Assembly: GCF_014131695.1 (NCBI RefSeq)
Contig: NZ_CP036346.1
Location: 2,604,001 to 2,668,000 of the forward strand
Direction: 5' to 3'
Source of the DNA: Thomasclavelia ramosa DSM 1402
Lineage (GTDB): Bacteria > Bacillota_I > Bacilli_A > Erysipelotrichales > Coprobacillaceae
Length of the DNA: 64,000 nucleotides
Below, piece by piece: positions 6,360-35,448 of the stretch (its first letter is position 1; each line of letters begins with the position of its first letter). The notes under the pieces were generated by a model, which was not told the DNA's origin, searched no databases, and saw only the letters and a program-made list of their open reading frames with translations. A program made the translations under genes and the position numbers.

Positions 6360-9300
6360 TTAATTATTTTCTTTTCTTCTTTTCATCCATAAAACCAGAC
6401 TCGCAGTTGAAACCATTAATGCAAATATACCAGCAAAATTAGCCGCATCACCAGTTTTTACTCCTTGAGAAGACTCTTCGCTAATCGCAACTTTCTCTAA
6501 TTGTTCTAGTGCATTTTGTAAAACCGTTTTGGCTTCATCAACAGCTGCCAGTGTCGCCTTTTCATCTGCTAAGACAATTTTGGCTGCTGATAAAGCTTTT
6601 TCTAATCGTTCCCAAGAAGCCCTTGTATAATCTTTAGCAGATAATTTTTCAGTCCGCTCAACTAGCTCCTGTAATTTAATCTTATTGAAATCACGAATAT
6701 TTAAATTTTCAATTGCCACATTTAACCGTGTAATAGCAGCATTTACCTGAGCTTGAGTTACATCATTTCCAGTATAAATATCTTGTGCTGCTTGTAAAGC
6801 GGTCTTAAACTCTTTAACTAAATCAGCATCAAGATTACTTAAAATATCTTCAGTAATCTTATCAGTAATAGCTAAAAGTGCTTCTAACTGACTCTTATCA
6901 ACTTTTTCTTCAGTCTTTTTAACTAAAGCTTGATACATAGTTTGTAATTTTTCATAACTATCATCAACTTGTTTTTGTGTTGCCTGATCATCTTTCAAAA
7001 TCACTATTGCTTGATCATATGCTTCCTTAAATTCTTGATACGATTGGACTGTATATTCTTCACTTGTTTCAAAAACTTTCTTTATTTCATCGCTTTCAAT
7101 ATAGTTTTCAAGAAACTCTTTGTTTACCGAGATAATATATTTAATAGTATAATTTTCTATCGTTTTACCATCTTCCGCTCTAACAATGATCTTTACTTCA
7201 TTATTATATACTGGTAAAACAGTAATTGCTTCATTATTATTACCTTGAGCTATAACTGATGGGGTATCAGCTGTTTTCAAATCAACAGTATATGTTTTAG
7301 TAAGCTTATCATACCCTCGATAACCATTAAATTCTTTAATATTAACCCCATCTAATTTTAAATCATCTAGATTTGCAGATGAATTTGCAGTTACTGGTAA
7401 AATATAATCATATACTTCTATTTCTGTTAAACCAATACATTTATTAACTTGCGGTGACTTCATCCATATGCGTAATTTATTAGTTGTAATCGGGTGAATA
7501 AATCCATATGGAGTATCACCAGATGTATATGGTACTTGTGTAATGTGCGAAGACTCAATTTCTTGCCATGAATTTGTTGGAACATCATAATATTCAAACC
7601 GGACATTGTTATCACCTGGTAAAACACTGAATTGATTATCCGTAAAATGCCACAGTTTAATATTTTGCATCAAGTATTCTTTTTGCCATTCTAATTGTAC
7701 ATAAGTATCCACCGGAGGATTTTCATTTCTTAAACTCCAATTTGTCCACCGTGCGCTTTCGCGTCCACTTTCATTAGTAATCCCATCATTTAATTCACTC
7801 AATGAATCATTGATTGGCGTTGCTGTTGGTTCACTTGGAACACCATTGACCATTTTCCCATTTGTAAATAATGGTGTATCTTGATAATTCTTTGAAGCAA
7901 TATTCTGTGAATCAGCTAATTTTGGTGCTACTCGAACAGTTGCTGTAACATCTTTTACTTCATTTAGAACATTGACTGTACCTTTTACTGTTACCATTCC
8001 TTCATTTTTAAAAGCATCAGCAGGAATATTCCATTTAACCGGAAAAGCCTCACTATAATTTCCATTTTCATAAAGTCCTCGAACCGTTTGTGGTAATACC
8101 GGTGTAATTCCTGCACTAGTTACTGTTGAATAGTTTTCCATGGCTACGACATTACCAATTACATGAACCGTTACAGTTACTACAGCTTCACTATCCTGAA
8201 GTTTTCCTGTTATTGTGAACTCACCAATTTTATTTAATGATTCTTTATCATATTCATTCCATTTAATCGTTAAGTCTCTTGTCTCCCCATTATTGTATGT
8301 TCCTACAACTTTTGCAGGCAGATCAGGTTCTTCACCAACATTAACATATAAATTTTTAGCAATTGTGTAACTTTGCAGATAAGCATCACCCTCAACAGCA
8401 TTTTTAACCGTCTTGACAGAAATATTTGAACCACTTAAACCATCACTGCTGGCACTAAATGTAAATGATCCCTCATCTTTAGTAGATTGAACAATCACTA
8501 ATGCCTTTCCTGAAAAGGCTTTTCGTGAAGTTCCCTTATAACTATCAGTATCAGCTGCATTACCATTATCAACCCCAACAATTTTACCATTTCCTTCAAT
8601 CTTGAAATTAATACGATTATCAGCTCCAGCGACAATATTTCCATTCATATCTTTAACATCGACAGTAAGATAAGATAAACTACTGCCATCAGCTAAAATT
8701 TCCTTTTTATCAGCACTTATCGCTAATTTTGCAGCTTTGGTATTAGTCGTTACACTGCTTCTTCCTTCAGTTTCTGTAATTAAATTACCTTTTTTGTCAT
8801 ATGCTTTAGCACTCAACGTTCCTGAAGCCCAGGTTACATTAAAGCTTGGGTAAAATTCTCCATTTGAAAATGTTTGATACTTATATCCTAAAGCAGTAGT
8901 ATGCGTTGTTGCTGTATCCTCCCCCACTTTATTCCCATTTAAATATAACTCCACTTTTGCAGCATTAGTAAATACATCGACCTTGACCTTACCATTATTA
9001 TTTTTGACTATTTCATCATTGTTCCATGTTGACATTAAATGCAAAGTAGTTGTATCTTCGTCCCACATACTTTTATATAAATAATAAGTATCTTTTACAA
9101 ATCCTGCAGTATCAACAATTCCAAAATATGATGATTTAGGTTTAGCTCCCTGACCACTTGCACTTCCTGCTCCAGTTCCATTCCATGGCGTTGGTTCACC
9201 AATATAATCAAAACCAGTCCACACAAACTCTCCAGCATTGAAATCATTCTTAATAACAAATTGCCAGGCATCACTTGCTGAATGTCCCCAGCCAACTTTT

Positions 9301-11054
9301 GCCTCATCATTATCATATTCTGACATTTGTAAAGTATTATCATCTTTACCCGTAGTATTATAAACTCCACGACTATGGACAGCACTTGCCGTTTCAGAAC
9401 CGTATAGTGGCCAATCGCTATAAGTATTGTGCATAGCTATAGTTTGATCACCATTTGCATAGTTCATTCCAACCACGCCACCAGCTTCATATATTTTTTG
9501 ATTAATTTGGCTGAGCATCGCATTTGGATTAGTATTTTTGCGATTATCACCATTTGTGACTGGACGAGTTGTATCAACCTCTTGAACCCATTTAATTAAA
9601 TCATCAACTAAATTTAAATAATGTGAGGTATTTCCTGATACTCCTTCATCAATTTCATTACCTAATGACCACATAATTACACTTGGATCATTTTTAGCAC
9701 CATCAACCATTGCTTTAACATCAAATTCGCCCCACTTCATTCCAGCTTTTCCATTAACAATTTGATTATCGGTACTAATTACTTCATTAAAATGTGAAGT
9801 GTAGTCATTAACATTTCCATTTTTATATTCGGTCCAGCCATCAAATGCTTCATTAATAACTAACATTCCATTTTCATTACATACTTCTAATAAAACTGAT
9901 GCCGCAGGATTATGGGTAACACGAATCGCATTGCATCCCATTTCTTTTAATATTTTGACCTGCCGTTCAATTGCATCACGATTAGCAACTGCTCCTAGTG
10001 CACCCTGATCATGGTGCAGACAAACACCTTTTAATTTTATTTTTTCACCATTTAATGAAAAACCTGTATTATTATCAAAATCAAAATAGCGGAAACCATA
10101 CTCAGTTTCATAAGTATCTAAAACTTTATTATCCGCCACGATTTCAGTTTTCATTGTATATAAATTTGTATCCTCAGTGGACCACAATTTAGGAGCAATA
10201 ACAGACACTTCCTGTTTTACATCTTTTGTACTTTTAGCTGCTAATTCAACTTCATTAGTGACGGTACTACCCGCGGCATTTCCTTGAGCATCCAATAAAG
10301 TATTTTTAACTGTGATCGTTTTATTTGTATCGCTATCATTATCGATTGTTGCTGTAACATCAACTTTAACATTATTGTCCTTAGTATTTTCTAAATCTTT
10401 AGCAATGATTTTAGTTCCATTATAGCCAACATGAACCTTATCTGTAACTGTTAACTTTACATCTCGATAAATCCCACTTCCAGAGTACCAGCGACTACTT
10501 GGAATTTTATTATTAGTTTTTACTACTAAAACATTTTCAGTCTCACCATCGCAGATTAAGCCCTCAGTCAAATCAAATGCAAAAGCAGTATATCCATATG
10601 GATGCTCACCTAATTTTGTCCCATTTAAATAAACTTCAGCATTCATATAAGCGCCATCAAACTCAATCATCAATTGTTTTTCTTGATATTTTTTAGGTAC
10701 TACAAAAGTTTTTCGATACCAGCCAACGCCACCTGGTAAAAAACCACTCTCTGCTTCTCCGCTTGTTGTGAAATCTTGATCAATACTATAGTCATGTGGC
10801 AAATTCACCGTTTCCCAAGTTGAATCATTGTAATCTTTGTTTTGAGCATCATTTATATCACCACGATGAAACTTCCAATTTTCATTAAATAGCGTGGTTC
10901 TTTGCCCATCTCCAATGATATCAACATATACTTCTTCGGGGTCTGACTGAGTAATTCTTGCATTTTCTTGTGCTAATACCCCAACTGGTGCTGATGATAA
11001 CAACATTGAAACAGTTGCTACAGCACATAATTTTTGATTCCATCTTCCTTTCAT
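6360..11054 (-). CDS. Surface-anchored GH2 beta-galactosidase-type enzyme, multidomain
   Basis: A giant exported glycosidase of 1,564 aa. The ATG at 11054 is preferred because AAGGAGGAAGTT precedes it and a normal signal peptide follows; the upstream frame is the terminator-bearing leader. Order: signal peptide (1-29), GH2 jelly-roll and Ig domains (about 60-340), TIM barrel with acid/base E467 (SLGNEIDEG) and likely nucleophile E554 (YGSETAS), WTGFDYIGEPTPWN, then DUF4982/Ig-like domains, an F5/8-type carbohydrate-binding domain (about 1050-1210), a cadherin-like Ig, three FIVAR repeats (about 1310-1525) and an anchor VKTGD + TM + KRRKENN. The exact sugar is not readable; beta-galactoside is the family default. 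Expression is probably under RAT antitermination. Confidence 0.9.
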   Translation of the reverse strand: MKGRWNQKLCAVATVSMLLSSAPVGVLAQENARITQSDPEEVYVDIIGDGQRTTLFNENWKFHRGDINDAQNKDYNDSTWETVNLPHDYSIDQDFTTSGEAESGFLPGGVGWYRKTFVVPKKYQEKQLMIEFDGAYMNAEVYLNGTKLGEHPYGYTAFAFDLTEGLICDGETENVLVVKTNNKIPSSRWYSGSGIYRDVKLTVTDKVHVGYNGTKIIAKDLENTKDNNVKVDVTATIDNDSDTNKTITVKNTLLDAQGNAAGSTVTNEVELAAKSTKDVKQEVSVIAPKLWSTEDTNLYTMKTEIVADNKVLDTYETEYGFRYFDFDNNTGFSLNGEKIKLKGVCLHHDQGALGAVANRDAIERQVKILKEMGCNAIRVTHNPAASVLLEVCNENGMLVINEAFDGWTEYKNGNVNDYTSHFNEVISTDNQIVNGKAGMKWGEFDVKAMVDGAKNDPSVIMWSLGNEIDEGVSGNTSHYLNLVDDLIKWVQEVDTTRPVTNGDNRKNTNPNAMLSQINQKIYEAGGVVGMNYANGDQTIAMHNTYSDWPLYGSETASAVHSRGVYNTTGKDDNTLQMSEYDNDEAKVGWGHSASDAWQFVIKNDFNAGEFVWTGFDYIGEPTPWNGTGAGSASGQGAKPKSSYFGIVDTAGFVKDTYYLYKSMWDEDTTTLHLMSTWNNDEIVKNNNGKVKVDVFTNAAKVELYLNGNKVGEDTATTHTTALGYKYQTFSNGEFYPSFNVTWASGTLSAKAYDKKGNLITETEGRSSVTTNTKAAKLAISADKKEILADGSSLSYLTVDVKDMNGNIVAGADNRINFKIEGNGKIVGVDNGNAADTDSYKGTSRKAFSGKALVIVQSTKDEGSFTFSASSDGLSGSNISVKTVKNAVEGDAYLQSYTIAKNLYVNVGEEPDLPAKVVGTYNNGETRDLTIKWNEYDKESLNKIGEFTITGKLQDSEAVVTVTVHVIGNVVAMENYSTVTSAGITPVLPQTVRGLYENGNYSEAFPVKWNIPADAFKNEGMVTVKGTVNVLNEVKDVTATVRVAPKLADSQNIASKNYQDTPLFTNGKMVNGVPSEPTATPINDSLSELNDGITNESGRESARWTNWSLRNENPPVDTYVQLEWQKEYLMQNIKLWHFTDNQFSVLPGDNNVRFEYYDVPTNSWQEIESSHITQVPYTSGDTPYGFIHPITTNKLRIWMKSPQVNKCIGLTEIEVYDYILPVTANSSANLDDLKLDGVNIKEFNGYRGYDKLTKTYTVDLKTADTPSVIAQGNNNEAITVLPVYNNEVKIIVRAEDGKTIENYTIKYIISVNKEFLENYIESDEIKKVFETSEEYTVQSYQEFKEAYDQAIVILKDDQATQKQVDDSYEKLQTMYQALVKKTEEKVDKSQLEALLAITDKITEDILSNLDADLVKEFKTALQAAQDIYTGNDVTQAQVNAAITRLNVAIENLNIRDFNKIKLQELVERTEKLSAKDYTRASWERLEKALSAAKIVLADEKATLAAVDEAKTVLQNALEQLEKVAISEESSQGVKTGDAANFAGIFALMVSTASLVLWMKRRKENN

Positions 11055-11111: not shown

Positions 11112-11191
11112 AATATAAAAGACCTGATTGTTCATCACGCTTATAAACGCTTTAAACAACCAGGTCTTGCCTAATCAAATAGTAACAATCC
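11112..11191 (-). promoter_or_regulatory. RAT antiterminator element overlapping a leader terminator (GH2 gene)
   Basis: On the minus strand 11191-11163 reads GGATTGTTACT, seven bases, then TTAGGCAAGACC: 29 nt, the size and ends of the BglG/LicT RNA target. Its 3' end is shared with a terminator stem AAGACCTGGTTGTT (11168-11155) pairing with AACAATCAGGTCTT (11132-11119, one G-U) followed by TTTTATATTTATTT. RAT folding and terminator folding are therefore mutually exclusive. Confidence 0.9.
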
Positions 11192-11203
11192 TATGCACTA
11201 ACA

Positions 11204-11232
11204 ATTATAGTTAATCACGTAAACCATGTCAA
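11204..11232 (-). promoter_or_regulatory. Consensus sigma-A promoter of the GH2 gene
   Basis: On the minus strand TTGACA and TATAAT are separated by exactly 17 bases. The predicted start lies a few bases ahead of the RAT. Confidence 0.88.
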
Positions 11233-11313: not shown

Positions 11314-14300
11314 TTAGCTCTGATGTTTAAATTTCCTTTTCAACTCAGCTAATAAAACTAATGCTCCGATAAACATTCCTATATATCCAAATAATTGAAC
11401 CTCATCTCCCGTTGCTACTACTGAACTATCCTTAGACTCATCAGGTTTTACGGTTACTTCACCAGCTTTTTTAAATGAGGCCCTTACACGAATATCAGCC
11501 GTAACATTTTTAATCATATATGAGTTATCCTTAATTTCAACTGCCTTTTCATTGATTAGTAATTGATCAAGTTCATAGCCTTGGTCAGGAACAACTTTTA
11601 AAGTAACGCTTTCACCAGCGTTAACAGTTGACCTATCAGCTATAACTTTACCATTTACAGTATCTTCAATAAAAATACCAAATGTTGTATCTGAATCATT
11701 TATATTTTTTACATTAATACTATCTAAAACATACCAGCCCTGCTCTGTCACTTCCGCATCTTTAAGGGCTAAAGCAATTTCCGGAAGATTATTATTTTTA
11801 TCATTAACAATTGCTGTTGCTAGTTTGTATTCACCTGATTTAATACTATTTGGCAATTTAAATGTAGTCTCATAATGATTATTTCCATCTTCGAAAAGCC
11901 AATCACCCGGGTTTACTTTATCAGTATCTTCATTATATTGATAAATAACCTGATTTGTTTTTGGGTCCAATAATGCGAAAGCAACATGATATTTATTATC
12001 CCAATGTTTATTTTTATTCGGCAACATGCCTAGCCCTAAATTACGCCACGCTTGTTTAATCGTTATTTCTTCCCCAGTCGTGAAAAGCTCAGGAACTTCT
12101 AAACTAGTCAAAGCGAGGCGATAGCCACCATTCAAACCAAATTTATTCAATAAACCAGAACCGTTTTGTTGATCATTCTCTAGCCATTTCTGACAGTCCA
12201 TTACAACCCGAGCATCTAGAGTATTTGCTCGACATGCCAAAGCATCAGCTACGACCTGACGTAAAATACCATCCAAAGTCGGATAACCAGCATTATTATA
12301 CCAGTATTCTCGTACTTTAAATGAATGATAACAATTTTCTGCAAAAACTGGTATTCCTTGATTAAACCATTCTAATGTTTGATTTCTAATTGCATCCGTC
12401 ATCCAGCCAAATGTATCACGGCGAACAACAAAATCATATTCTTTGTCAAATGCTCCAGTATAAGGTTTGTCAGTATTAATGATCTCATCATTTTCTTGAG
12501 TCCCATAATTTTCTGGTTGTCCTTCTTGAGCTCCCAATAAAACATCCGGGAAATATTTATCATATATTTTAATCACTTTTTCAACCGCATCATAAACATT
12601 ATCATCCCACTCAGTACTAAATTTAACGTGATGTGCTTCACCCCAGTTACCAAAGCCCATACCATCAATAAAAGCAATATCTAAATCATTATTAAACTCT
12701 GCACCAAATGCTTTAATAAACTTATCTAATTTTTCTAAGAAAACAGGATCATTAATATATGGATCTTTAGCATCGATTTCTGGTGCCGTATCATCAGTTC
12801 GATCAGTTTTATACCAGCTTGCTCCTGCTTTAAATACATATTCTGGTGTTGCCTGCTGAAAAGCATCACTTGAATCCACCAATACCCTAAAAGCTAATTG
12901 AATTCCTCGCGCTCTTGCTCCACTAATTAATTTACTCAACCTGCTATCAGGATCATTCCATGCATAATTTCCTTCTGATGGTTCATACCAGCTCCAAGGA
13001 TTACGAATATATAAAATATTTGTCTTTAAACCTTGAGCATATAATTCATCCATTTCAGCCCAATATTTATCAACATCGGTATCTTGGAATTCATAATATT
13101 GAACCCATCCCATTGACGGATTATTATAAATCGTTTCATTATCAACAATAGTTGAAATCAATTTATTGCCGGGCAAAACTCTTCTTGGTACAACAACTTC
13201 AAACTCATCTGTGATACCAACATCCTGACCATCTTCACTACTAACCTTTAATGTTATTTTAACTTTTGTATCTGTCAAAGGTGCATTAATATTACCATTT
13301 AAATCAATGATTTCCTCATGATCAGAACTATTGATCGATACCTCATAGCCTTTTAAATGAGGAATTGGAAATTTGCTTTCACCTTGATTTACAACTATAT
13401 TGGTATCAATACTTTCAGCATAGTACTGAGCATTATTATTTATTGTTCCAATTGCATTTAAATCTGTAAATAAATAGGAATTATCCCAAACTAGATTAGC
13501 TTTATTTACGATCAAGCGAATTTTACTAGTTGTAAGTTCATTAAAAATAAGCTGCTGTGATTCTCTAATTTGATTATCGGTTTTATGTTTAAAATCAAAT
13601 GTATCAACATTTTTCCAACTATTACCATCCCAAATTTCCACAGTCAAATTACCAATACCTTGTGAATTAGGAAAATGTGCCGTATAAACAAGTTCATTAG
13701 TTGTAATTGTCCGTGGTGAAAAATCTAAGATATACTCATCACTATCAGAATATGTAGTTTTATAATAACTACTTACATTATTATCAACCATTCCAGCTGC
13801 ATCAATATTTTCACCATTATGATAAACTCGGGCATTTGATAAAAGATTATCTTTTAAATATACACCTTCTGTTTCAATTTCATTGATTACAATATTTTCA
13901 TTACTTTGTAATTCTAAAATAAATATATTTCCCAAAGATAAATAACCGGGATCAACTTCAAAATAATCCCCATTTTTATCACTTTTCCAGTCTGGTTTAA
14001 AATCACCAGCTAAATCATTGATCATCCCATTTTCATTGACATTAACATTACGATAATAATTAGTATTCGCAATACCTTTTAAGGTAACAGTTTCAATGTT
14101 TTTATTACTCGTATAAATTCTCATTTTCTTTAATGCAATATTGGCAAACTTATTATTTTCAGGTTTAACTTCAAACAATAAAGACGTATTCCCATTATTA
14201 CTCCAACCGCTTTTTATGTCACCATCAGTTATACTTGTAATTTTATAGGCTTGATCATTAACCAAAGAAATATCTAAATATTTAGAACAGTTTTCAATAT

Positions 14301-15456
14301 TTATATCTTGATCTAACGAAATACGATACTCATCACTATAAAGATCTAATCCCTCACAAGTAACATGAATACTATATGTACCCACTGGTACTGTCTTAGG
14401 AATTACAAATTCATAATTTAATTTACCATTTTTCATCTCAACTTGATATTTGACTGGTCTTGCTAGTGATTGATGAGATTTAAAATCGACTAACTCTAAA
14501 TTTATTGTAGTAGATTTATTCTTATTTTTTATTACCATTGGTACAATATTTTTCACACCATAATTTCCTTGTGAAGAACTTATTTGAATAGATGGTAACT
14601 CTCCAGATTTATAACCCCATACCTGTACTTCAACAATATCATTCGTATTTTCCCAACTAGTATATGAATCTAATGTTTTTAACATGATTTTATTAGTTGA
14701 ATAAACTTGATCAAATTGAATTCGAAATGGCTCACATTCAATATTCTTATCCCACCTAAATTCAAATTCACGACTGCCATTATTTAAAATATTTTCCCAA
14801 GTTTGACTACTATCATCCCAATATAATATTTCTGCAACTTTAGGGCCTTGGTCATTTCCATATGTTGAATATAGATCTAAAGAATACACATCTATTAAAT
14901 CCTCTCCATAATCAAATGTAAAAATTCCTGGATTTTCTCTAGTTGGCTTATTTGTAACGGGCGTATACATTGCCCACTGAATACCATCAATTAAATCGCC
15001 TGTTACTCCTGAATATCCAGTAACGTTGGTACTGATCTTACTGCTTAAATTAACATTATTTAATAAAATTAGACCATTTGTAACACTTTCACTATCAATC
15101 GTTGTTCTTACTTGATATTGACCCCCTGACAATGTTCCTGGTACTTGCAGCACTAATTGAGTAGTGTCACCATTGATTACCCCATTTTGCTTTGTTGCTT
15201 CTACTTCTCTTGCTTCTTCATCAATCAGTACTGTGTTATATTCTTTACCACTCAATCCCGTTCCAGTTATCGTAATTGTCAGATTAGCATTTGGTACTAC
15301 CGGTTTATTATCTTTATAAACCTCTGTATAACCCACTTTCAAGATAGTTTGATCTAAATGCTGTTGCCAATTTCCTTGAGCCTTGATTGGTACAATATAA
15401 CTAAAAAACATCGCCACTATAACTAATAACGAAACAATCTTACCTCTCTTTTTCAT
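11314..15456 (-). CDS. Giant surface protein with DUF4832-like TIM-barrel domain (putative glycosidase)
   Basis: A 1,380-residue exported protein with signal peptide 1-27 (cleavage near IKAQ). The first about 740 residues look like serial beta-sandwich/discoidin-type binding domains (for example VEIWDGNSWKNVDTF). From about 770 to 1090 a TIM-barrel segment appears (NPSMGWVQYYEF, LYIRNPWSWYEPSEGNY, FIDGMGFGNWGEAHH, then MDCQKWLEND), which resembles the DUF4832/DUF4874 region of uncharacterised glycoside-hydrolase-like proteins. A beta-sandwich and a basic-tailed TM anchor after VVATGDE close it. E46-type positions are not assigned: I cannot name catalytic residues. It is divergent from a GntR regulator and shares its operator motif, so it is probably controlled by it. 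Confidence 0.65.
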   Translation of the reverse strand: MKKRGKIVSLLVIVAMFFSYIVPIKAQGNWQQHLDQTILKVGYTEVYKDNKPVVPNANLTITITGTGLSGKEYNTVLIDEEAREVEATKQNGVINGDTTQLVLQVPGTLSGGQYQVRTTIDSESVTNGLILLNNVNLSSKISTNVTGYSGVTGDLIDGIQWAMYTPVTNKPTRENPGIFTFDYGEDLIDVYSLDLYSTYGNDQGPKVAEILYWDDSSQTWENILNNGSREFEFRWDKNIECEPFRIQFDQVYSTNKIMLKTLDSYTSWENTNDIVEVQVWGYKSGELPSIQISSSQGNYGVKNIVPMVIKNKNKSTTINLELVDFKSHQSLARPVKYQVEMKNGKLNYEFVIPKTVPVGTYSIHVTCEGLDLYSDEYRISLDQDINIENCSKYLDISLVNDQAYKITSITDGDIKSGWSNNGNTSLLFEVKPENNKFANIALKKMRIYTSNKNIETVTLKGIANTNYYRNVNVNENGMINDLAGDFKPDWKSDKNGDYFEVDPGYLSLGNIFILELQSNENIVINEIETEGVYLKDNLLSNARVYHNGENIDAAGMVDNNVSSYYKTTYSDSDEYILDFSPRTITTNELVYTAHFPNSQGIGNLTVEIWDGNSWKNVDTFDFKHKTDNQIRESQQLIFNELTTSKIRLIVNKANLVWDNSYLFTDLNAIGTINNNAQYYAESIDTNIVVNQGESKFPIPHLKGYEVSINSSDHEEIIDLNGNINAPLTDTKVKITLKVSSEDGQDVGITDEFEVVVPRRVLPGNKLISTIVDNETIYNNPSMGWVQYYEFQDTDVDKYWAEMDELYAQGLKTNILYIRNPWSWYEPSEGNYAWNDPDSRLSKLISGARARGIQLAFRVLVDSSDAFQQATPEYVFKAGASWYKTDRTDDTAPEIDAKDPYINDPVFLEKLDKFIKAFGAEFNNDLDIAFIDGMGFGNWGEAHHVKFSTEWDDNVYDAVEKVIKIYDKYFPDVLLGAQEGQPENYGTQENDEIINTDKPYTGAFDKEYDFVVRRDTFGWMTDAIRNQTLEWFNQGIPVFAENCYHSFKVREYWYNNAGYPTLDGILRQVVADALACRANTLDARVVMDCQKWLENDQQNGSGLLNKFGLNGGYRLALTSLEVPELFTTGEEITIKQAWRNLGLGMLPNKNKHWDNKYHVAFALLDPKTNQVIYQYNEDTDKVNPGDWLFEDGNNHYETTFKLPNSIKSGEYKLATAIVNDKNNNLPEIALALKDAEVTEQGWYVLDSINVKNINDSDTTFGIFIEDTVNGKVIADRSTVNAGESVTLKVVPDQGYELDQLLINEKAVEIKDNSYMIKNVTADIRVRASFKKAGEVTVKPDESKDSSVVATGDEVQLFGYIGMFIGALVLLAELKRKFKHQS

Positions 15457-18864: not shown

Positions 18865-18894
18865 AAAAGAAGAATTCCTAGGAATTCTTCTTTT
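18865..18894. terminator. Perfect 30-bp palindromic bidirectional terminator
   Basis: Arms AAAAGAAGAATTCCT and AGGAATTCTTCTTTT are exact complements and provide T-runs in both directions, between the convergent MFS and glycosidase genes. Confidence 0.85.
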
Positions 18895-21800
18895 AATAAA
18901 TATTCTTTCTTTTCTTTATGATTACAAACAGACCTGCCATGATCCCAATTAAAGAGATATAGAGACTCATTAAATTCTCATCCCCCGTATTTGGGACTAC
19001 TGGCTTTTTGTCAACTGGCTTAATCGAGTTAATTGGAGTAACACTGCCCTCTTTCTTTTCAAGAGTATCAATTGCATCATTAATTGCTTTTGCCATAGCA
19101 TCAACTTCAGCTTGCTGTGTAATATTTTTTCCACGAACTACAGCATTTATTGCTGCTTCTACTTTGGAAAAATCTTTATAATCATCCTTGTTTAATTTTT
19201 CAGCAGCTACAATAGCCGCATCAACAGCCTGATAATCAGCATCTAAATAAGTTAGTTCATTTTTTGCTGCTAAAAGTGCCTCGTACAATGCATCGCATTG
19301 TTCTTTAGTAATATTTTCAACATTATAGCCACTAATTGCTGCATCTAATGCTCGACTGAGTTTCGCATAAGAGTCTAGTGTATAGAGCTTTGCATCTAAC
19401 ACCTGAATTTCATTGATTAATTCTTCTAATATTTGAAGTGAATATGTTTTTGTTAATTCTGGATAAGCACAGCTCATTGCATAATGCTGCCAAGAAGCAT
19501 GCTCTTGGTTTCCAACATCTGAAAAATTTCCATTTGGTTGATATGTTTCGGGATAAACACCACCAGGAGTGGAATGATCTAAAATAAAACTAGCTAAATA
19601 ATCTAACTTTTCATTATCGTCTTTTACGCGATTAAACATAATTTCCCATGCTAACCCTTTACCAATAATATGATTTCCACTTTGTTGAGTATCAAAATCA
19701 TAGACAACATCTAACATCTTATAATCATCATAATCTTGACTATCGTATTTTGCATAAATATCATAAGTATTTTGCATGATTTTTTCATCCATTGCATACC
19801 ATTGAGCTGCCATTGGAGCCCAATTGACCCATGACATTCCTTTAATAAACTTCATGTTATTATCAATATCATATAATTCAGCATAAATTTTAACTCCATC
19901 AACTTCAGTTGTTAAATATTCATTGATTCCCTTTGTTAAAGTTGCGGAAGTATCAGCCCATTTAATTGCTGAATCACTATCGCCAAATTCTTTTGCTAAA
20001 GCACTTAGTTCATACAAAGCTTGTGATGCAAATACATTTGTAATTAAATCATAAGATTTCCAATATCTTCCCTCACGTGAATGCTCAAAACTGTCATTTC
20101 TCATTAAATTATATTCGTCACTTATGTATCCTTGATCAATATAATAATTTGCAAATCTTTTAATAATTGGATAGGATTTTTTGATAAACTCTTGATTTTC
20201 TACCGTCTTTTTACATCCATTAACAAATTGAGCCCATGCATGGATCAACATATAATTCCCATCAATTTGAACATGATTGGATAAAGTATGAAGATTGGAT
20301 TTATATGCAACATAGCCTGCCTCTCCAGCTACTGCAGTCCCGTTATATAATGTTGCTAAATTATCCACATTTTTACTTCCATACCAAGTAATTGTATTAT
20401 CACTATTTTGTGGAGCTTTAATTTCTAAATAATAAGATTGCGTTTTATCGACTTGTTCCAACGATAAACTAAATTCTAAATGTACCATTTGCCCACTTGA
20501 AGATAGCTTAGAAATATCAATCGCAGCGTCATCTACTTTGATTGCTTCTGCACCATATCCTTTATATAAAGTTGCAATAGCAATTCCCTCTTCTAAATTA
20601 TTTTTACCTAACAATACATCTACAGCCGTTACATATTGATCTAAAGATGGAATTTCCTGAATCCCAATATTTTTATCTCCAATTGTCATAAGCGGTACTC
20701 GATAATCACCCGAATATAATGGTAGGATATCTAACTCAAAATCAAAATCATGACTATCCCAATTATCACCATTTAAACTATAGGCGCTTGCTTTAAGAGC
20801 AGGGTTATAATTCCATTGTACATAATCATTATTTTCAGCCCATAAAACAAAATAATAATCTTTATCGGCAGCGACTTTAACTTCTTTTCCAAAATCAATT
20901 TGATAATTTTGTACTCCAGCTTTTTCAATTGCTATCTCCCCTGAAGCAATAGCCTTACTATTTAAACTTTCTCTTAATTCACCAATCAAATTACCACCTG
21001 CCACGTTAGCATCAGCAGTAAAAGAAACGGCTTGAATTGCATCACCATTTAATGAAATTTTTTGAGCATATGGTGATTGAGCAATATTAACTTCTGAAAA
21101 TACTTCCGCTGCAATAACATAACCAGTTTGTGACCAAACATTATTTTCCCAGTTCATAGATGCTACAGAACCCGCAAACATTGAAGAACCACAAGCAATA
21201 ACTTGACCGCTGGTTGTTGTAATATGAACATAATATTTTTGTCCTGGTGTCACAGGAATATTTTCTCCAAAATCAACTGTTTGCCAGCCATTACTTGATA
21301 CTGTTTGTGAAATAGTTTTTATTGTTTTTGCCTCATTTCCAGGTTCAGTTGTCAACTTAAAAGTAACAGGAGCACTTCCGGTTAAATAAACTCGAAACGA
21401 ACAGATAGAATCACTATTTGGCACAAATGCAAAAGCAGAATTATTAGTAGTTGCATTAATTAAAAATAAAGCAATCGAATGATCTGTATTTGACATAAAT
21501 GAATTATCTGTTTTTTCATCATCATTTCCGTTTAATTTAAATGCCGGATATGCGCTTTCTGCAAAGCCGCCTAAAACCGGAACATCATAATTATAACCCA
21601 TAATAGCATTATCCGCAGGTTTCCCATCAGCCTTTCCGAACATAGCAATACCATTATTAGATTGTACAAAGAAATGATAAGTTTCTCCTTTTTTTACAGT
21701 AATTGGCTGGTCAAATGTAAATGTCTGCCAGCCACTAGCAGTAACTGTAATCTCTTTACTTATCAACTCTGTTGAAGCATCTGTAATATTTGTTCGCAAA

Positions 21801-22363
21801 CTTCCAGTTAAAACATCATTTCCAGTAGAATTAGTGAAAATAGAAATTGATGTTACTTTATCACTATCTGTTTGAAATGCTACTCCACCACCGTTATTTG
21901 GTCCTTTTAACCCAAATAACGCATGATCAGAAAAAGTCTGTGAGGTATATAAATTTTGTGTCTGTGCTGTTTCTCCCTGGGATAGATAGGAGTTCCCAAA
22001 TTCTTCATCTTCATAATCAGGAACGATATGCTGAGCATAATCTGCCCCTAGTCCTTGTTGATAGCTCAACAAAAAATTTAATACTTGCCTTGATTTTTGA
22101 TAATCACCATAAGCATTTTGTGCCATTACTTGAATCGAACTATCACGAATAAACATTCCCTCATAAGCCCCTGTCAAAGAAGTCGGTGCATAACCCCGAT
22201 TCGTAATTCGATTCGTTAAATTAGCATATGTATTCTTATACATTTCTTTAGCCGCATCGCTTGTCCCTACATGTTCAACTGCAAAAGATGGTGTTCCTAA
22301 TAATGAAATTACCATTCCAGCAGTTAAGACAATAGTCATTATTTTTTTTAACTGTTTCTTCAT
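18893..22363 (-). CDS. Giant surface (alpha/alpha)6-barrel glycosidase-like protein
   Basis: An exported protein of 1,156 aa. The ATG at 22363 gives a signal peptide (about 1-28, cleavage at SFA). Residues about 40-95 (TSLTGAYEGMFIRDSSIQVM) resemble the GD-MWLRDS region of (alpha/alpha)6 families such as GH125; the matching C-terminal half of that barrel appears only after residue about 710 (YMLIHAWAQFVNG, LMRNDSFEHSREG, NQEHASWQHYAMS). Between them lie four jelly-roll-like segments, apparently inserted in the barrel. Two FIVAR-like helical repeats and the anchor VVPNTGDE + TM + KKRKNIY end the protein. Family number is uncertain. The leader carries a RAT and terminator. Confidence 0.65.
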   Translation of the reverse strand: MKKQLKKIMTIVLTAGMVISLLGTPSFAVEHVGTSDAAKEMYKNTYANLTNRITNRGYAPTSLTGAYEGMFIRDSSIQVMAQNAYGDYQKSRQVLNFLLSYQQGLGADYAQHIVPDYEDEEFGNSYLSQGETAQTQNLYTSQTFSDHALFGLKGPNNGGGVAFQTDSDKVTSISIFTNSTGNDVLTGSLRTNITDASTELISKEITVTASGWQTFTFDQPITVKKGETYHFFVQSNNGIAMFGKADGKPADNAIMGYNYDVPVLGGFAESAYPAFKLNGNDDEKTDNSFMSNTDHSIALFLINATTNNSAFAFVPNSDSICSFRVYLTGSAPVTFKLTTEPGNEAKTIKTISQTVSSNGWQTVDFGENIPVTPGQKYYVHITTTSGQVIACGSSMFAGSVASMNWENNVWSQTGYVIAAEVFSEVNIAQSPYAQKISLNGDAIQAVSFTADANVAGGNLIGELRESLNSKAIASGEIAIEKAGVQNYQIDFGKEVKVAADKDYYFVLWAENNDYVQWNYNPALKASAYSLNGDNWDSHDFDFELDILPLYSGDYRVPLMTIGDKNIGIQEIPSLDQYVTAVDVLLGKNNLEEGIAIATLYKGYGAEAIKVDDAAIDISKLSSSGQMVHLEFSLSLEQVDKTQSYYLEIKAPQNSDNTITWYGSKNVDNLATLYNGTAVAGEAGYVAYKSNLHTLSNHVQIDGNYMLIHAWAQFVNGCKKTVENQEFIKKSYPIIKRFANYYIDQGYISDEYNLMRNDSFEHSREGRYWKSYDLITNVFASQALYELSALAKEFGDSDSAIKWADTSATLTKGINEYLTTEVDGVKIYAELYDIDNNMKFIKGMSWVNWAPMAAQWYAMDEKIMQNTYDIYAKYDSQDYDDYKMLDVVYDFDTQQSGNHIIGKGLAWEIMFNRVKDDNEKLDYLASFILDHSTPGGVYPETYQPNGNFSDVGNQEHASWQHYAMSCAYPELTKTYSLQILEELINEIQVLDAKLYTLDSYAKLSRALDAAISGYNVENITKEQCDALYEALLAAKNELTYLDADYQAVDAAIVAAEKLNKDDYKDFSKVEAAINAVVRGKNITQQAEVDAMAKAINDAIDTLEKKEGSVTPINSIKPVDKKPVVPNTGDENLMSLYISLIGIMAGLFVIIKKRKNIY

Positions 22364-22452
22364 CTTCCTCACCTCTCTAATTTGTGTGTTGTTTACTCAA
22401 TGTATATTGTCTACTTTTATTATTCCCTCCTTTTAGAACAGGTATTTTAATC

Positions 22453-22513
22453 AAAAAGACAAGACTAAAAAGTATTACACTTTTTTGGTCTTGCCTACCT
22501 AAAGTAACAACCC
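22453..22513 (-). promoter_or_regulatory. RAT antiterminator element overlapping a leader terminator ((alpha/alpha)6 gene)
   Basis: On the minus strand 22513-22487 reads GGGTTGTTACTTTAGGTAGG then CAAGACC: 27 nt, matching the LicT/BglG RAT ends and core. The terminator arm CAAGACCAAAAAAGT (22493-22479) pairs with ACTTTTTAGTCTTG (22473-22460), followed by TCTTTTTG, so the two structures compete. Confidence 0.87.
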
Positions 22514-25827: not shown

Positions 25828-27750
25828 TTATCGTTCTAAAACCGTTTCGATTTCTTCAAAAATCGCAATAATTTCTTCATAAGTTTTCTTTCTGATGATC
25901 CTTTTAACATATAAAGGATTTTTAATCATATAAGCTAATTCATGATACAAATTTAATATTTTTGAATTTATCGGTTCTCCTATCAAGGGAACAATTATTA
26001 ATTGAACCCTCTTTTCATTCCATAGAATTGGCTTTGATAAAATACCAATAATTACTTCTGTTTGATTATTTGCACTTATTCCATTTAAAGATAAAATAGA
26101 AATCATATTATCTAATTCATGATTAGCTACCTTATCATTTTCAATTATTTCTTGAATTATATTTTTATCATAATTAGTGCTATTGATTATAAATGATATA
26201 GCTTCTTCCTTAGTATCCGCATTGATTGATGTTAATACCATTCGCTTATCTATATAATCTCTTATCTTAAATACTTCTTGATCACACAGTATTGTTTCAA
26301 TTCTCTTTTTATCATTATCACTAAAAAAATAATTGACTTCAATACTTGGTACAGAAAAATCACGTCTTAGTGGAATACTGGATATTAATAAATTAATATT
26401 TGTAAAATCATAATTATTTAACTCAATATAATCAGCTGTCTTAACCTCATTAATATATTTTCCATACATCTCTTTAATTTGATAAGCCAATGTATGAGCT
26501 GTCCCTCTTCCTAGACCACTTACAACTAAAATATTTTTCTTGTTTTTTATTTGCGTACGCAATAAAGCTAGATTCATATGTAATGCAATATAACCCATCT
26601 CATCTTCACTAAGGCGGTTGCCATGATAATCACTGAATTGATCACAAGCTGTTACTGCCATTTGATAGGCAAAGATATTTTGCTGTTTAATTTTATCAAT
26701 TAGCGGATTATGAAGCACTACATTATACCGCGAACGAACCTCCAAGGGGATTAAATGTAACACTAATTGTGATTTTAATTCTTCATCTTGAGTTAAATCG
26801 ATTCCCCATTTACAGTTAATATTATTAATCATATTATTGACTAACTTATTAACATCAAAATCTTCGATAATGCGATGGATACTTTCATCAAAATGACGAA
26901 TAATTCTTTTTGCTGCTAAATGTATAGAAAGTGATACTATTTCTTGATCTTTCATTTCTATTGTCAATTCATCATTAATTAATTTTGCCAATTCAACAGC
27001 CACTATACTATCAGTCCAGCGAGCTATATCGATAACCATCTTATCAGTTGATTTTAAAAATATTCCTTTTTTAATTCTTTTTAAAGAGATATAAATATCA
27101 ATTATAAAATTTTGAACTGAAACTTCAGACATTGATATTTGATATCTAGTTAATATTCTATCTACAATATCTTCAATCTTCAAAATCAGCTGGAGCTCAT
27201 CATTGTTAAATTGTGTTCCAGGAAACCCTTCTCTTTGATCAATATGTGTAATATAAATCTGTGCGAGGCAGAGTCTTTTATTAAACTCCCTGCCTTCTAC
27301 CCTCATTCCATAATGAGGTTTTTGTAATAATATTAAATCATATTTTTGAAAAGCCTTTCGTACGGATTTAATATTTTGTGATAATACCGACTGAGAGATA
27401 AAAAGCTTTTCACATAGAGCTTCTGCCTTGACCCAACCATTATTCTCAATCAGATATTTTTGAATCCATTCCTCTCTTTCTGTCACACTATAAATTGAAA
27501 AATCGTTAGTATCATTAAAAGAATTACATAAATTTATAAATTCTTCAATATCGTTAATTACCAGCTTAATACCACGAGATGGAGTGACTTCTATATAATT
27601 ATCTGTTGCTTTCATATCACAATTCAAAGATTTTATATCTTTAAGTATGGTTTTTGTACTAACATTATTCATAGCACTTAATGTTTCAGAAGTTACATAT
27701 TCCTCTGTTTCTTTTAAATATTTTAATATTTGGTAGTTTCGCTTATTCAT
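25828..27750 (-). CDS. BglG-family PRD transcription activator (LicR/MtlR type)
   Basis: A 640-residue DNA-binding regulator whose activity is set by PTS phosphorylation. Order: HTH_11 (1-60; NYQILKYLKETEEYVTSETL), a second HTH/Mga domain (about 85-150), PRD1 (about 190-290, with the His of LSIHLAAKR), PRD2 (about 300-400, with ALHMNLALLR), EIIB-like domain (about 405-495; VVSGLGRGTA has Ser/Gly where a phospho-Cys would be) and an EIIA-like C-terminus. Its neighbour downstream is the EIIC-GH1 operon. TATAAT lies only 9 bases ahead of the ATG and no ribosome binding site is visible, so the mRNA may be leaderless. Confidence 0.9.
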   Translation of the reverse strand: MNKRNYQILKYLKETEEYVTSETLSAMNNVSTKTILKDIKSLNCDMKATDNYIEVTPSRGIKLVINDIEEFINLCNSFNDTNDFSIYSVTEREEWIQKYLIENNGWVKAEALCEKLFISQSVLSQNIKSVRKAFQKYDLILLQKPHYGMRVEGREFNKRLCLAQIYITHIDQREGFPGTQFNNDELQLILKIEDIVDRILTRYQISMSEVSVQNFIIDIYISLKRIKKGIFLKSTDKMVIDIARWTDSIVAVELAKLINDELTIEMKDQEIVSLSIHLAAKRIIRHFDESIHRIIEDFDVNKLVNNMINNINCKWGIDLTQDEELKSQLVLHLIPLEVRSRYNVVLHNPLIDKIKQQNIFAYQMAVTACDQFSDYHGNRLSEDEMGYIALHMNLALLRTQIKNKKNILVVSGLGRGTAHTLAYQIKEMYGKYINEVKTADYIELNNYDFTNINLLISSIPLRRDFSVPSIEVNYFFSDNDKKRIETILCDQEVFKIRDYIDKRMVLTSINADTKEEAISFIINSTNYDKNIIQEIIENDKVANHELDNMISILSLNGISANNQTEVIIGILSKPILWNEKRVQLIIVPLIGEPINSKILNLYHELAYMIKNPLYVKRIIRKKTYEEIIAIFEEIETVLER

Positions 27751-31060: not shown

Positions 31061-32542
<1,482 letters not shown>

Positions 32543-33934
32543 CTACACCTCTTTCTCATCTATTCCTAAAATATAAGTTAATATAAATGTAATAATCATT
32601 CCTACCAATGCAGCAATTAAAAAGAATATCAAATTATTTCCTGGACCCGCAAAAGTAACTACTGCAAACATACCTCCTGATCCTGGAAATGCATAACAGG
32701 CAACTTTTAATAGTCCAGCAATTAATCCTCCAGCTGCATTTCCAATCATCGCTGCATACAATGGTTTTTTATACTTAAAAGTAATCCCGAACATAGCCGG
32801 TTCTGTTACCCCACCAACAATTGCAGTAACCGCACACGACATGGCAGTAGATTTTACTTTTTTTGTCTTAGCTTTTAATGATACTGCTAAAGTCGCTGCA
32901 AATTGATTCATATTAGAAAGAATCATAGCTGGTAAAAAGAAAGGATCATATCCTAAAGAGGCGAAGGCCGAAGTCCAATATGGTGTCATCATTGTATGCA
33001 TACCAGTCATAACCATTAAAGGTAACAATGCACACAAAATAGAAACCCCTAAGAAACCAATTGTTTCATAAATCCAAATAACCGCTTCTGCCACATAAGT
33101 TCCAATATAGTATCCCAACGGTGCCGTTACTACTAACATAATTGGTAACATGACTAATAAAGAACCTGTAGGGACAACAAATGATTTTAAAATATCTGGA
33201 CAATATCGATTAATTAGTTTCTCAACTTTACTTAAAATATAAACAGTTAAAATAATTGGAATAACGGTAGTTGAATAATTTGCAACATAAACCGGTAATC
33301 CAAAAATTGACATAGCAGCTCCTTCAGTTGCCATTGCAATAAAACTTGGATAAATAAGCAATGCACCTAACAACATTCCTACACCTTGGTTTGCTCCAAA
33401 TTTTTTAGCAGCTGTTGCGCCTAAAAAAACGGGAAAGAAATAGATAAAAGCATCCCCCAACCAATATAAAATTTGATATGTTGAGCTTGTTTCAGGCAAG
33501 ATTCCTACCATATTCGCAAGCATATAGAATACTTTGATCATTCCTCCACCAATCATCATTGGAATAATCGGCGTGATACATCCTGATATCCCATCCATAA
33601 TTCCCATAAGTACAGATTTTAAAGCGACTTTTTTCTTTTCTGCATTTCCATCAAGATCTTCATCAATTGCTTCTTCTCTTTGGAGATTGCCAAACTCACA
33701 AATTTCCGCATAAGCATCAGCAACTGCGGGTCCAATAATGATCTGCAATTCATCATTGGACCATTGACTTCCTAATACCTGATCTACATTTTCTATATCA
33801 GATATCTTCACAATACTCCTGTCCTTTAAATTAAAACGCAATCTGGTTGTACAATGTTGAAAATATGTAATATTTTCTTTTCCACCGATTGAATCTAAAA
33901 TCGTTTTAGCAAGTTTTTCATATTTCTTTGCCAT
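32543..33934 (-). CDS. PTS beta-glucoside-type EIIBC permease
   Basis: Imports and phosphorylates beta-glucosides. The N-terminal EIIB domain (1-80) has the phosphorylated Cys28 in FQHCTTRLRF; EIIC (about 100-460) contains about ten membrane segments, GMHTMMTPYW, and the signature GGVTEPAMFGITFKYKKPL. No EIIA domain is fused; the separate EIIA gene at 34901 completes the system. At 463 aa it is normal for a EIIBC. It is separated from licT by an intrinsic terminator and a GC-rich palindrome, so it may be expressed at a different level from EIIA and LicT. Confidence 0.93.
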   Translation of the reverse strand: MAKKYEKLAKTILDSIGGKENITYFQHCTTRLRFNLKDRSIVKISDIENVDQVLGSQWSNDELQIIIGPAVADAYAEICEFGNLQREEAIDEDLDGNAEKKKVALKSVLMGIMDGISGCITPIIPMMIGGGMIKVFYMLANMVGILPETSSTYQILYWLGDAFIYFFPVFLGATAAKKFGANQGVGMLLGALLIYPSFIAMATEGAAMSIFGLPVYVANYSTTVIPIILTVYILSKVEKLINRYCPDILKSFVVPTGSLLVMLPIMLVVTAPLGYYIGTYVAEAVIWIYETIGFLGVSILCALLPLMVMTGMHTMMTPYWTSAFASLGYDPFFLPAMILSNMNQFAATLAVSLKAKTKKVKSTAMSCAVTAIVGGVTEPAMFGITFKYKKPLYAAMIGNAAGGLIAGLLKVACYAFPGSGGMFAVVTFAGPGNNLIFFLIAALVGMIITFILTYILGIDEKEV

Positions 33935-33994: not shown

Positions 33995-34029
33995 AAATAA
34001 AACCCCATCAAAGTATTACTTTTCTGGGG
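33995..34029 (-). terminator. Internal terminator between licT and EIIBC
   Basis: On the minus strand CCCCA/TGGGG with inner AAAGTA/TACTTT, followed by TTTTATTTT. The licT stop codon lies in the loop side. It probably lets only part of the transcripts reach EIIBC and GH1. Confidence 0.8.
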
Positions 34030-34885
34030 TGATGCCCTTTCGGTGACAATCCTCTTTTATATACAATCTATTAACATGGACTAATAAATATAATAGTTCC
34101 TCGGTCGTACATTTTTCTTTATATTCCTGATAAAAATAGTTATCTATCTTACTGATACAATCATAGGTATCTGGATACTTTTCTATCATGCTCTCATATA
34201 ATTCACGATTGTTATCTGTGAACATTTCTCTAGCTTCTTTTCTTTGAACAAAATATTTTAGATGATTTTTAAACCTAAAGTAATTAAAACTCTTCTTGTC
34301 TATATTAAAATTAAAATGTTTTTCTACTATGTTAGTAACATTAAAGATAACCTTTGATATCTTATTTTCAATATTACCTTCATGCATTTTCGTATTTGTA
34401 CCTTCAAGTGCATTAATAAAATGCATAGTTATACTTGTAACTTCACCTTTTGGTAAATGAGTATCTAATTCCTCATTAGTTTTTTTTACCATCCACTTTG
34501 ATATTTTTGTTAATAGTGGATATTCATACTCTAATTCATAAGAATATGGTAACGAAATATCCATACCATTTTTCTCCCTAATAACAGCAAAATTAATATG
34601 ATCAGCTAAAATAAACACTAAATTAGGACTTAATTCATCTTCAATATTCTTTTTTGCAACATCCACCATTTTTGTAACTAAGTTAAAAATGTTATTTGGT
34701 ATTTCCTTAAGTAGACCATAATATCTATTGTCAACATCATAGAAGGTTCGCTCAATAACAGAGAGATCTTTTATTTCATAGGGAATATTTCCATATCCAA
34801 TTCCTTTAGCAAATACAATAACTTCATTGTTTTCCCCATCAACTGCAATTGCTATATTATTATTTATTTTTTTGATGACTTTCAC
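34016..34885 (-). CDS. licT: BglG/LicT family RNA-binding transcription antiterminator
   Basis: Binds RAT elements in nascent leaders and prevents terminator folding when beta-glucoside is present. Order: CAT RNA-binding domain (1-57; MKVIKKINNNIAIAV, FAKGIGYGN), PRD1 (about 70-170) and PRD2 (about 175-280). All four PTS-target histidines are visible: H96 (ADHINFAV), H155 (TMHFINAL), H208 (FKNHLKYF) and H270 (LVHVNRL). 289 aa is the family length. Being between EIIA and EIIBC, it should be negatively phosphorylated by the cognate EIIB. Three matching RAT/terminator leaders occur in this window, including its own operon. Confidence 0.94.
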   Translation of the reverse strand: MKVIKKINNNIAIAVDGENNEVIVFAKGIGYGNIPYEIKDLSVIERTFYDVDNRYYGLLKEIPNNIFNLVTKMVDVAKKNIEDELSPNLVFILADHINFAVIREKNGMDISLPYSYELEYEYPLLTKISKWMVKKTNEELDTHLPKGEVTSITMHFINALEGTNTKMHEGNIENKISKVIFNVTNIVEKHFNFNIDKKSFNYFRFKNHLKYFVQRKEAREMFTDNNRELYESMIEKYPDTYDCISKIDNYFYQEYKEKCTTEELLYLLVHVNRLYIKEDCHRKGITPEK

Positions 34886-34900
34886 GAAGTATTCCTCCTT

Positions 34901-35368
34901 CTATTTAATCAAAGTATCTCCTCTATGAACTTCCCTATCATAACATTCTAATTTTATACTTTGATTATAACCTGCTGTAAATATAACCATAGTTGTTTTA
35001 TCTATATTCATTTCATCCATAATATTATCATCAAATTTTAATATAGGCATATTCTTCTTTACCTTATCGCCAACTTTGACAAATATCTCAAATCCTCTAC
35101 CTTTTAAGTTTACAGTATCCAAACCAACGTGTACTAATATTTCAACCCCACTTCTAGTTTTAATTCCAAATGCATGTTTACTATTTGGTATCATAACAAT
35201 TATTCCATCAACAGGTGAAACAACAATATTATCTGATGGAATAATTGCAAAGCCATCACCCATCATTCTTGTTGAAAATACTTTATCTGGAACATCCTCT
35301 ATATTTATACATTTTCCATCTATTGGTGAAACAATTCCTCCATCTTGTTTATTCATAAATTTAAACAT
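34901..35368 (-). CDS. PTS glucose/beta-glucoside-type EIIA
   Basis: A 155-residue EIIA-Glc-type phosphocarrier that passes phosphate from HPr to the EIIB domain of the downstream EIIBC. H65 (SKHAFGIKT) and H80 (EILVHVGLDTV), the paired active-site histidines, are present, with GDGFAIIPSD and VSPVDGIIVMI upstream. It is the first gene of the operon EIIA-licT-EIIBC-GH1, with AGGAGTTAAT before its ATG and a RAT-controlled leader upstream. Having EIIA as a separate gene ahead of licT, rather than fused to EIIBC, is a less common arrangement. Confidence 0.93.
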   Translation of the reverse strand: MFKFMNKQDGGIVSPIDGKCINIEDVPDKVFSTRMMGDGFAIIPSDNIVVSPVDGIIVMIPNSKHAFGIKTRSGVEILVHVGLDTVNLKGRGFEIFVKVGDKVKKNMPILKFDDNIMDEMNIDKTTMVIFTAGYNQSIKLECYDREVHRGDTLIK

Positions 35369-35387: not shown

Positions 35388-35448
35388 CAAAAAAACTCTT
35401 TGATTCATTATCCTAAATAATAGGTCATGCCTCAAAGAGTTACAATCC
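35388..35448 (-). promoter_or_regulatory. RAT antiterminator element overlapping a leader terminator (beta-glucoside operon)
   Basis: On the minus strand 35448-35423 begins GGATTGTAACTC and ends GAGGCATGACC: 26 nt, a shortened RAT. The terminator AACTCTTTGA (35441-35432) pairs with TCAAAGAGTT (35403-35394) and is followed by TTTTTTG. The 5' arm lies within the RAT, so they exclude each other. Confidence 0.87.

Follow-up and report, generated by a model that had tools for sequence, protein, structure and literature searches.

The gene for an exported GH2 beta-galactosidase in the window (the whole stretch of 64,000 nucleotides analysed here, from Thomasclavelia ramosa DSM 1402) is preceded by a real RAT (ribonucleic antiterminator)/terminator switch of the BglG/SacY/LicT type. 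Counting this one, nine near-identical predicted switches of the same class are present in this genome, before exported proteins that are mostly GlcNAc-releasing enzymes, and their genomic context points to a GlcNAc-transporter-linked antiterminator, for which we use the label NagT (genome 824,912–825,754), and not to LicT, as the most likely controller of the GH2 leader. We consider it quite probable that these leaders place exported host-glycan glycosidases, encoded at dispersed loci, in one antitermination regulon that responds to GlcNAc, in which NagT would bind the RATs, GlcNAc would act as the inducer and read-through would follow.

A RAT/terminator leader upstream of the GH2 gene

The leader lies on the minus strand of the window, with its elements arranged toward the GH2 gene in the order promoter, RAT, terminator with U tract, ribosome-binding site and ATG at position 11054. 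An earlier note on this DNA had described a consensus promoter followed within a few bases by a 29-nt RAT, and both elements were recovered: the sigma-A type promoter TTGACA-17-TATAAT (11204–11232, minus strand) matches the consensus at 12 of 12 positions, and the RAT (GGATTGTTACTATTTGATTAGGCAAGACC, 11163–11191, minus strand), whose class is conserved at 46 sites in the genus, starts 12 nt past the −10 box and forms canonical pairs between positions 1-29, 2-28, 4-25, 5-24, 6-23, 10-21, 11-20 and 12-19. The intrinsic terminator that precedes the U tract (11119–11168, minus strand) comprises 16 outer pairs, compared to 14 in the earlier count, and a 5-pair inner hairpin. Folded alone, it reaches −27.2 kcal/mol, whereas shuffled sequences average −8.0 (z = −8.0), and none of 200 shuffles was equally stable. 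As had been proposed, the 3′ arm of the RAT also serves as the 5′ arm of the terminator: AAGACC constitutes both the final six bases of the RAT and the initial six bases of the terminator stem, and the two structures are therefore mutually exclusive. With the RAT pairing and the terminator overlap in place, and with a CAT-PRD-PRD antiterminator encoded in the genome, the suggested BglG-type layout is borne out. The only Rfam families found in the window were tRNAs. In addition, a terminator-like hairpin (11308–11284) is situated between the GH2 promoter and the upstream gene (11314–15456, minus strand), whose product, a surface-type protein of 1,380 aa, has weak matches of the DUF4832 and InlB-repeat-like kind.

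The downstream gene (6360–11054, minus strand) encodes a GH2 beta-galactosidase of 1,564 aa that contains Big_4 and FIVAR repeats (Pfam, NCBIfam), and a signal peptide and a C-terminal membrane anchor can be read off its sequence, in support of the previous statement that the leader controls an exported GH2 enzyme. Its closest solved structure is the beta-galactosidase 7nit (E = 0, alignment of ∼1,270 residues), and the catalytic part also aligns to the solved structure 4cu6; we take these to be Bifidobacterium BbgIII and pneumococcal BgaA, respectively. LacNAc is the presumed substrate, and the enzyme would uncap galactose on LacNAc-type host glycans, thereby giving other enzymes access to GlcNAc.

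A genus-wide leader class mostly before exported glycosidase genes

The RAT class was defined by the loop-tolerant pattern GTTACT-N3-9-AGGCRAGAC, using the reversed pattern as control. A strict-pattern search of the genome yielded three further RATs, identical in their letters to the GH2 RAT except for one loop base, and with the loop-tolerant pattern the own genome had nine matches and Thomasclavelia as a whole 46 (in seven of nine genus genomes), compared to no match of the reversed pattern across the genus genomes. A terminator overlapping the RAT was found under a strict rule in 40 of 45 genus leaders, versus 4% of shuffled leaders, the stems of the remaining five being bulged or shifted as judged by eye. 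Both comparisons, the recurrence of the class and the frequency of the overlapping terminator, argue that the GH2 leader is not a chance structure. Moreover, in leaders whose RAT carries GGCGAG, CTCGC replaces CTTGC in the terminator arm, a compensatory exchange. Across 22 distinct RATs, 99.4% of cells pair, with GTTACT and AGGC..GAC invariant, and a single compensatory RAT pair (the outer pair 1-29, G-C to A-U) was observed in two distinct RAT types; since most RAT positions are invariant, covariation by itself lends weak support to the RAT structure. A pattern match in one relative (G040) lies inside a coding frame and was taken as chance.

In the own genome, both GH84 genes and four of the five GH20 genes bear the leader. 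Class members are located at 817110 and 825815 before GH84 genes (the latter behind nagT), at 2686907 before a GH16 gene, at 2763399, 2769562 and 2792594 before three large GH20 genes and at 2822994 before a smaller GH20 gene. The window holds a second RAT of this class in a short-loop form (GGGTTGTTACTTTAGGTAGGCAAGACC, 22487–22513, minus strand), overlapped by a terminator (22457–22496, minus strand; stem AGGCAAGAC/GTCTTGTCT followed by a T tract; z = −3.5) and positioned before the gene of an exported LPXTG-like protein of 1,159 aa with DUF4082 and a lectin-like domain (18893–22372, minus strand); neither this RAT/terminator nor this open reading frame appeared in the earlier note. All readable genes downstream of the class encode exported proteins, mostly GH84/GH20 N-acetylhexosaminidases, and the targets in other species are likewise mostly GH84 and GH20 proteins, in addition to a GH141-like protein and an arabinofuranosidase-like one.

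The comparison with orthologous leaders, proposed previously as a check, gave a mixed outcome, as the orthologous GH2 genes of five other species of the genus (68–70% identity) have no RAT in front of them, yet the leader itself belongs to a genus-wide family. For the latter reason, the RAT-less orthologs point to a recent acquisition and not to a chance structure. Within the own genome, the GH2 leader aligned to the GH16 leader with a score of 157 and to the GH20 leader with a score of 120 (shuffle maxima of about 50), the likeness extending outside the RAT into 5′ UTR sequence (CTATTCTATACGGGAAAAGGAGG), whereas scores against the leaders of its orthologs were 46–75, at or slightly over shuffle level. 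Close homologs or orthologs of the GH16 protein (in G002) and of the small GH20 protein (in T. cocleata) are also devoid of an upstream RAT. Judged from these alignments, the GH2 leader is probably a captured cassette that, in this lineage, was copied from one exported-enzyme gene to another, unrelated one, which is the simplest reading because loss in all other lineages would be less economical. At or overlapping the promoter of four of the five GH2 orthologs (L092, L093, L094 and L096), we observed a cre-like sequence such as AAAGCGCTTACGTGG, with a variant form in G004; this resemblance to a CcpA cre site suggests catabolite repression of the GH2 orthologs in these relatives.

A captured cassette could also persist as a relic or plain terminator, exerting constitutive attenuation with no response to an antiterminator, which would fit the five orthologs that lack this leader and the recent arrival indicated by the alignments. 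However, the GH2 RAT displays no decay: no invariant position has been lost, the promoter matches perfectly and the terminator overlap is intact, which makes a relic highly improbable.

NagT as the candidate regulator

Seven CAT_RBD antiterminators are encoded in the own genome. One of these, NagT, consists of a CAT_RBD and two PRD stretches, and its gene is located directly 3′ of a PTS EIIBC gene (nagE), whose product matches the NCBIfam GlcNAc equivalog TIGR01998 with 608 bits (cut-off 553); this adjacency is kept in most genomes read. A RAT of the GH2 class is found ∼60 nt behind nagT, before the GH84 gene mentioned above, and 12 of 14 NagT genomes carry a RAT ∼60–250 nt past the nagT stop codon, the next gene being GH84 or GH20 where read. 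In a set of 43 family genomes, the NagT orthologs stand clearly apart (61–81% identity, next best 41%), and the RAT class occurs in 13 of the 14 genomes with NagT compared to none of the 29 without it (Fisher p = 4e-10, a value inflated by shared ancestry, the co-occurrence pattern spanning six genera). The exception, G037, has NagT and no RAT-class match. In another relative, G004, the nagT reading frame is split near residue 97.

The earlier note had assigned the leader to LicT and beta-glucosides. The window indeed contains a BglG family member of this kind, the LicT-like antiterminator of a beta-glucoside operon (34016–34885, minus strand), and the overall form of the GH2 RAT is similar to that of LicT RATs. 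However, this operon (35448–31061, minus strand; EIIA-like 34901–35368, EIIBC 32543–33934, GH1-like 31061–32539) is preceded by a RAT of its own, GGATTGTAACTCTTTGAGGCATGACC (35423–35448, minus strand), which differs from the GH2 RAT at several positions, and the protein is the most divergent from NagT among the seven antiterminators (25% identity). Furthermore, T. cocleata (G001) and three other genomes (G002, G006 and G008) have GH2-class RATs yet only two antiterminators, NagT and a GlcT-like protein, neither being of the LicT type, and the other genes bearing this class encode mostly hexosaminidases and not beta-glucosidases. Across the family genomes, the RAT class tracks NagT instead, the LicT/beta-glucoside assignment is not supported, and control of the GH2 leader by the LicT of the window was rejected as very unlikely.

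Similarly, RATs or RAT-like leaders of a sequence other than the GH2 class are present in five of the seven antiterminator operon regions: in addition to GGATTGTAACTCTTTGAGGCATGACC, ..GGCTAAACT and ..AAGCTAAACC in the 732-kb LicT region, GAGGCAACACTAAACC in the 972-kb region, CAGGCATTAAC in the GlcT-like region and the GGCTTGTTACCC type, read by eye, in the 557-kb region. No RAT was seen in the 1909-kb operon region. With different RATs in these five regions, NagT is left as the candidate. Control by the GlcT-like protein was discarded, as it is also present in the RAT-less genomes G005 and G007 and its own RAT type differs. LacT, considered in view of the beta-galactosidase, was likewise set aside, as the antiterminators scanned fell far short of the cut-off of the LacT model.

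A shared site, at which NagT and the LicT-like protein encoded at 732,618 (and perhaps GlcT) would cross-activate the GH2 leader and confer mixed GlcNAc/beta-glucoside induction, appears improbable to us. The leader RAT of the 732-kb gene (AGATTGTTACTATTCAATTAGGCTAAACT) has its upper part in common with the GH2 RAT, but the lower 3′ part reads GCTAAACT versus GCAAGACC in the GH2 RAT; the LicT-like frame is in two pieces and the protein may thus be inactive, and the RAT set persists in genomes that lack this protein. The two frames of this gene (732,618–733,420; L016 2580–3440) overlap and cover residues 1–194 and 195–277, possibly owing to a frameshift or a sequencing error. A further PRD-type protein encoded in the window (25828–27750, minus strand) is AcpB/EbpR/MafR-like, with a score under the curated cut-off, and is possibly a surface-protein regulator.

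For NagT, the preferred regulator, the sugar cannot be read from the protein family, because the match to the NCBIfam LicT model (264.6, cut-off 300) is LicT-like but below the curated threshold. Nor does the RAT class fix sugar specificity phylum-wide, as unrelated Firmicutes have the same letters in front of other genes for PTS components or antiterminators. GlcNAc is proposed as the inducer from the family of the adjacent EIIBC and from the target enzymes. Neither the own genome nor G008 has a RAT of the GH2 class upstream of the nagE-nagT operon, and autoregulation was not seen. The leader of this operon contains a hairpin with a T run (GCGAACTTAGTTCGT..TTTTTTTT; L013 8241–8268, plus strand) just past the promoter and no recognisable RAT. 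The GlcNAc-PTS EIIA gene beside nagE is preceded by a different, GlcT-type RAT (GATGTTACTATTAAATTAGGCATTAG; L013 about 8080–7990, minus strand) with an overlapping terminator, which is conserved in several species (L097, L099, L100 and L102).

Proposed mechanism and comparison with known systems

In the BglG/LicT model, the unbound RNA forms the terminator, and the active antiterminator holds the RAT so that RNA polymerase proceeds; the PTS EII phosphorylates and inactivates the antiterminator unless its cognate sugar is under transport. This model also holds for NagY (PMC9981650). By analogy, transcription from the consensus promoter of the GH2 leader would by default halt at the terminator, and a BglG-family antiterminator, most likely NagT, would bind and stabilise the RAT, withholding its six final bases from the terminator stem and allowing read-through into the GH2 gene. 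Uptake of GlcNAc would dephosphorylate the EII and lift the inhibition of NagT, and the nine exported proteins (or transcription units) would be turned on. The GH2 enzyme would then strip β-galactose off LacNAc ends, GH20 and GH84 enzymes would release GlcNAc, and its import by the PTS would sustain the signal.

The closest counterpart is found in E. faecalis, where NagY antiterminates nagE and the exported hylA in response to GlcNAc; two RAT/terminator sites emerged there from a covariance search, while RIP-seq pointed to 26 targets, and a less strict motif search placed putative RATs at 23 of these (PMC9981650, PMC12502629). Both systems pair a BglG-family antiterminator with a GlcNAc PTS gene and have a RAT that overlaps a terminator, and in both the RAT target in trans is an exported host-glycan enzyme: the cell-wall-anchored hylA product in E. 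faecalis, and here, under putative NagT control, the exported GH84, GH20, GH16 and GH2 proteins whose leaders lie away from nagT. They differ in several respects. The NagY RAT (TTTCATGTGACTAGATAATACTAGGCATGGAA) belongs to a different sequence type, and nagY is autoregulated and located upstream of nagE, whereas in the own genome nagT follows nagE and no GH2-class RAT precedes nagE. Canonical RAT/terminators number two by covariance search for NagY and nine here, and the main exported target of NagY is a PL8 lyase instead of GH84/GH20/GH2 enzymes.

LicT of Bacillus subtilis acts on licS and bglPH, with a beta-glucoside inducer and few targets. Shared with LicT-licS is a RAT/terminator leader before a secreted glycanase under (here presumed) trans control, and LicT is also the closest named NCBIfam model for NagT; unlike in LicT-licS/bglPH, the linked transporter is of the GlcNAc type and the RAT has a G at position 26 (GCAAGACC). 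SacY-sacB of B. subtilis senses sucrose and has one main exported target; it shares the antitermination of an exported glycoside enzyme and the GCAAGACC 3′ arm, but RAT position 8, a T here, is G in SacY-sacB. The LacT antiterminator of Lactobacillus casei is likewise linked to N-acetyllactosamine use; however, it acts in cis on an intracellular PTS operon and involves no exported beta-galactosidase (PMC5940811). The LacT model is, as indicated above, far below cut-off here.

The antitermination mechanism and the trans control of exported glycan enzymes (licS, sacB, hylA) are thus already known. What differs here is that a single genome carries nine to twelve canonical RAT/terminators at scattered places, almost always in front of genes for exported glycan enzymes, along with evidence for leader capture; a report of such a regulon in this bacterial group was not found among the open-licence papers searched. 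On balance, we lean towards a more general model in which one GlcNAc-sensing antiterminator runs up to a dozen dispersed exported glycosidases and genes join by capturing a promoter-RAT-terminator cassette, as apparently did GH2, GH16 and one GH20.

In Bacteroides, glycan enzymes are usually clustered with their regulators. In these gut Firmicutes they are scattered, and a shared RAT leader would explain how GH84, GH20, GH16 and GH2 enzymes are jointly switched on by one sugar. Leader-cassette capture would constitute a documented route for genes to join such a regulon, the easily recognised leader makes new members findable by sequence search alone, and the regulon is directly testable in a culturable gut species.
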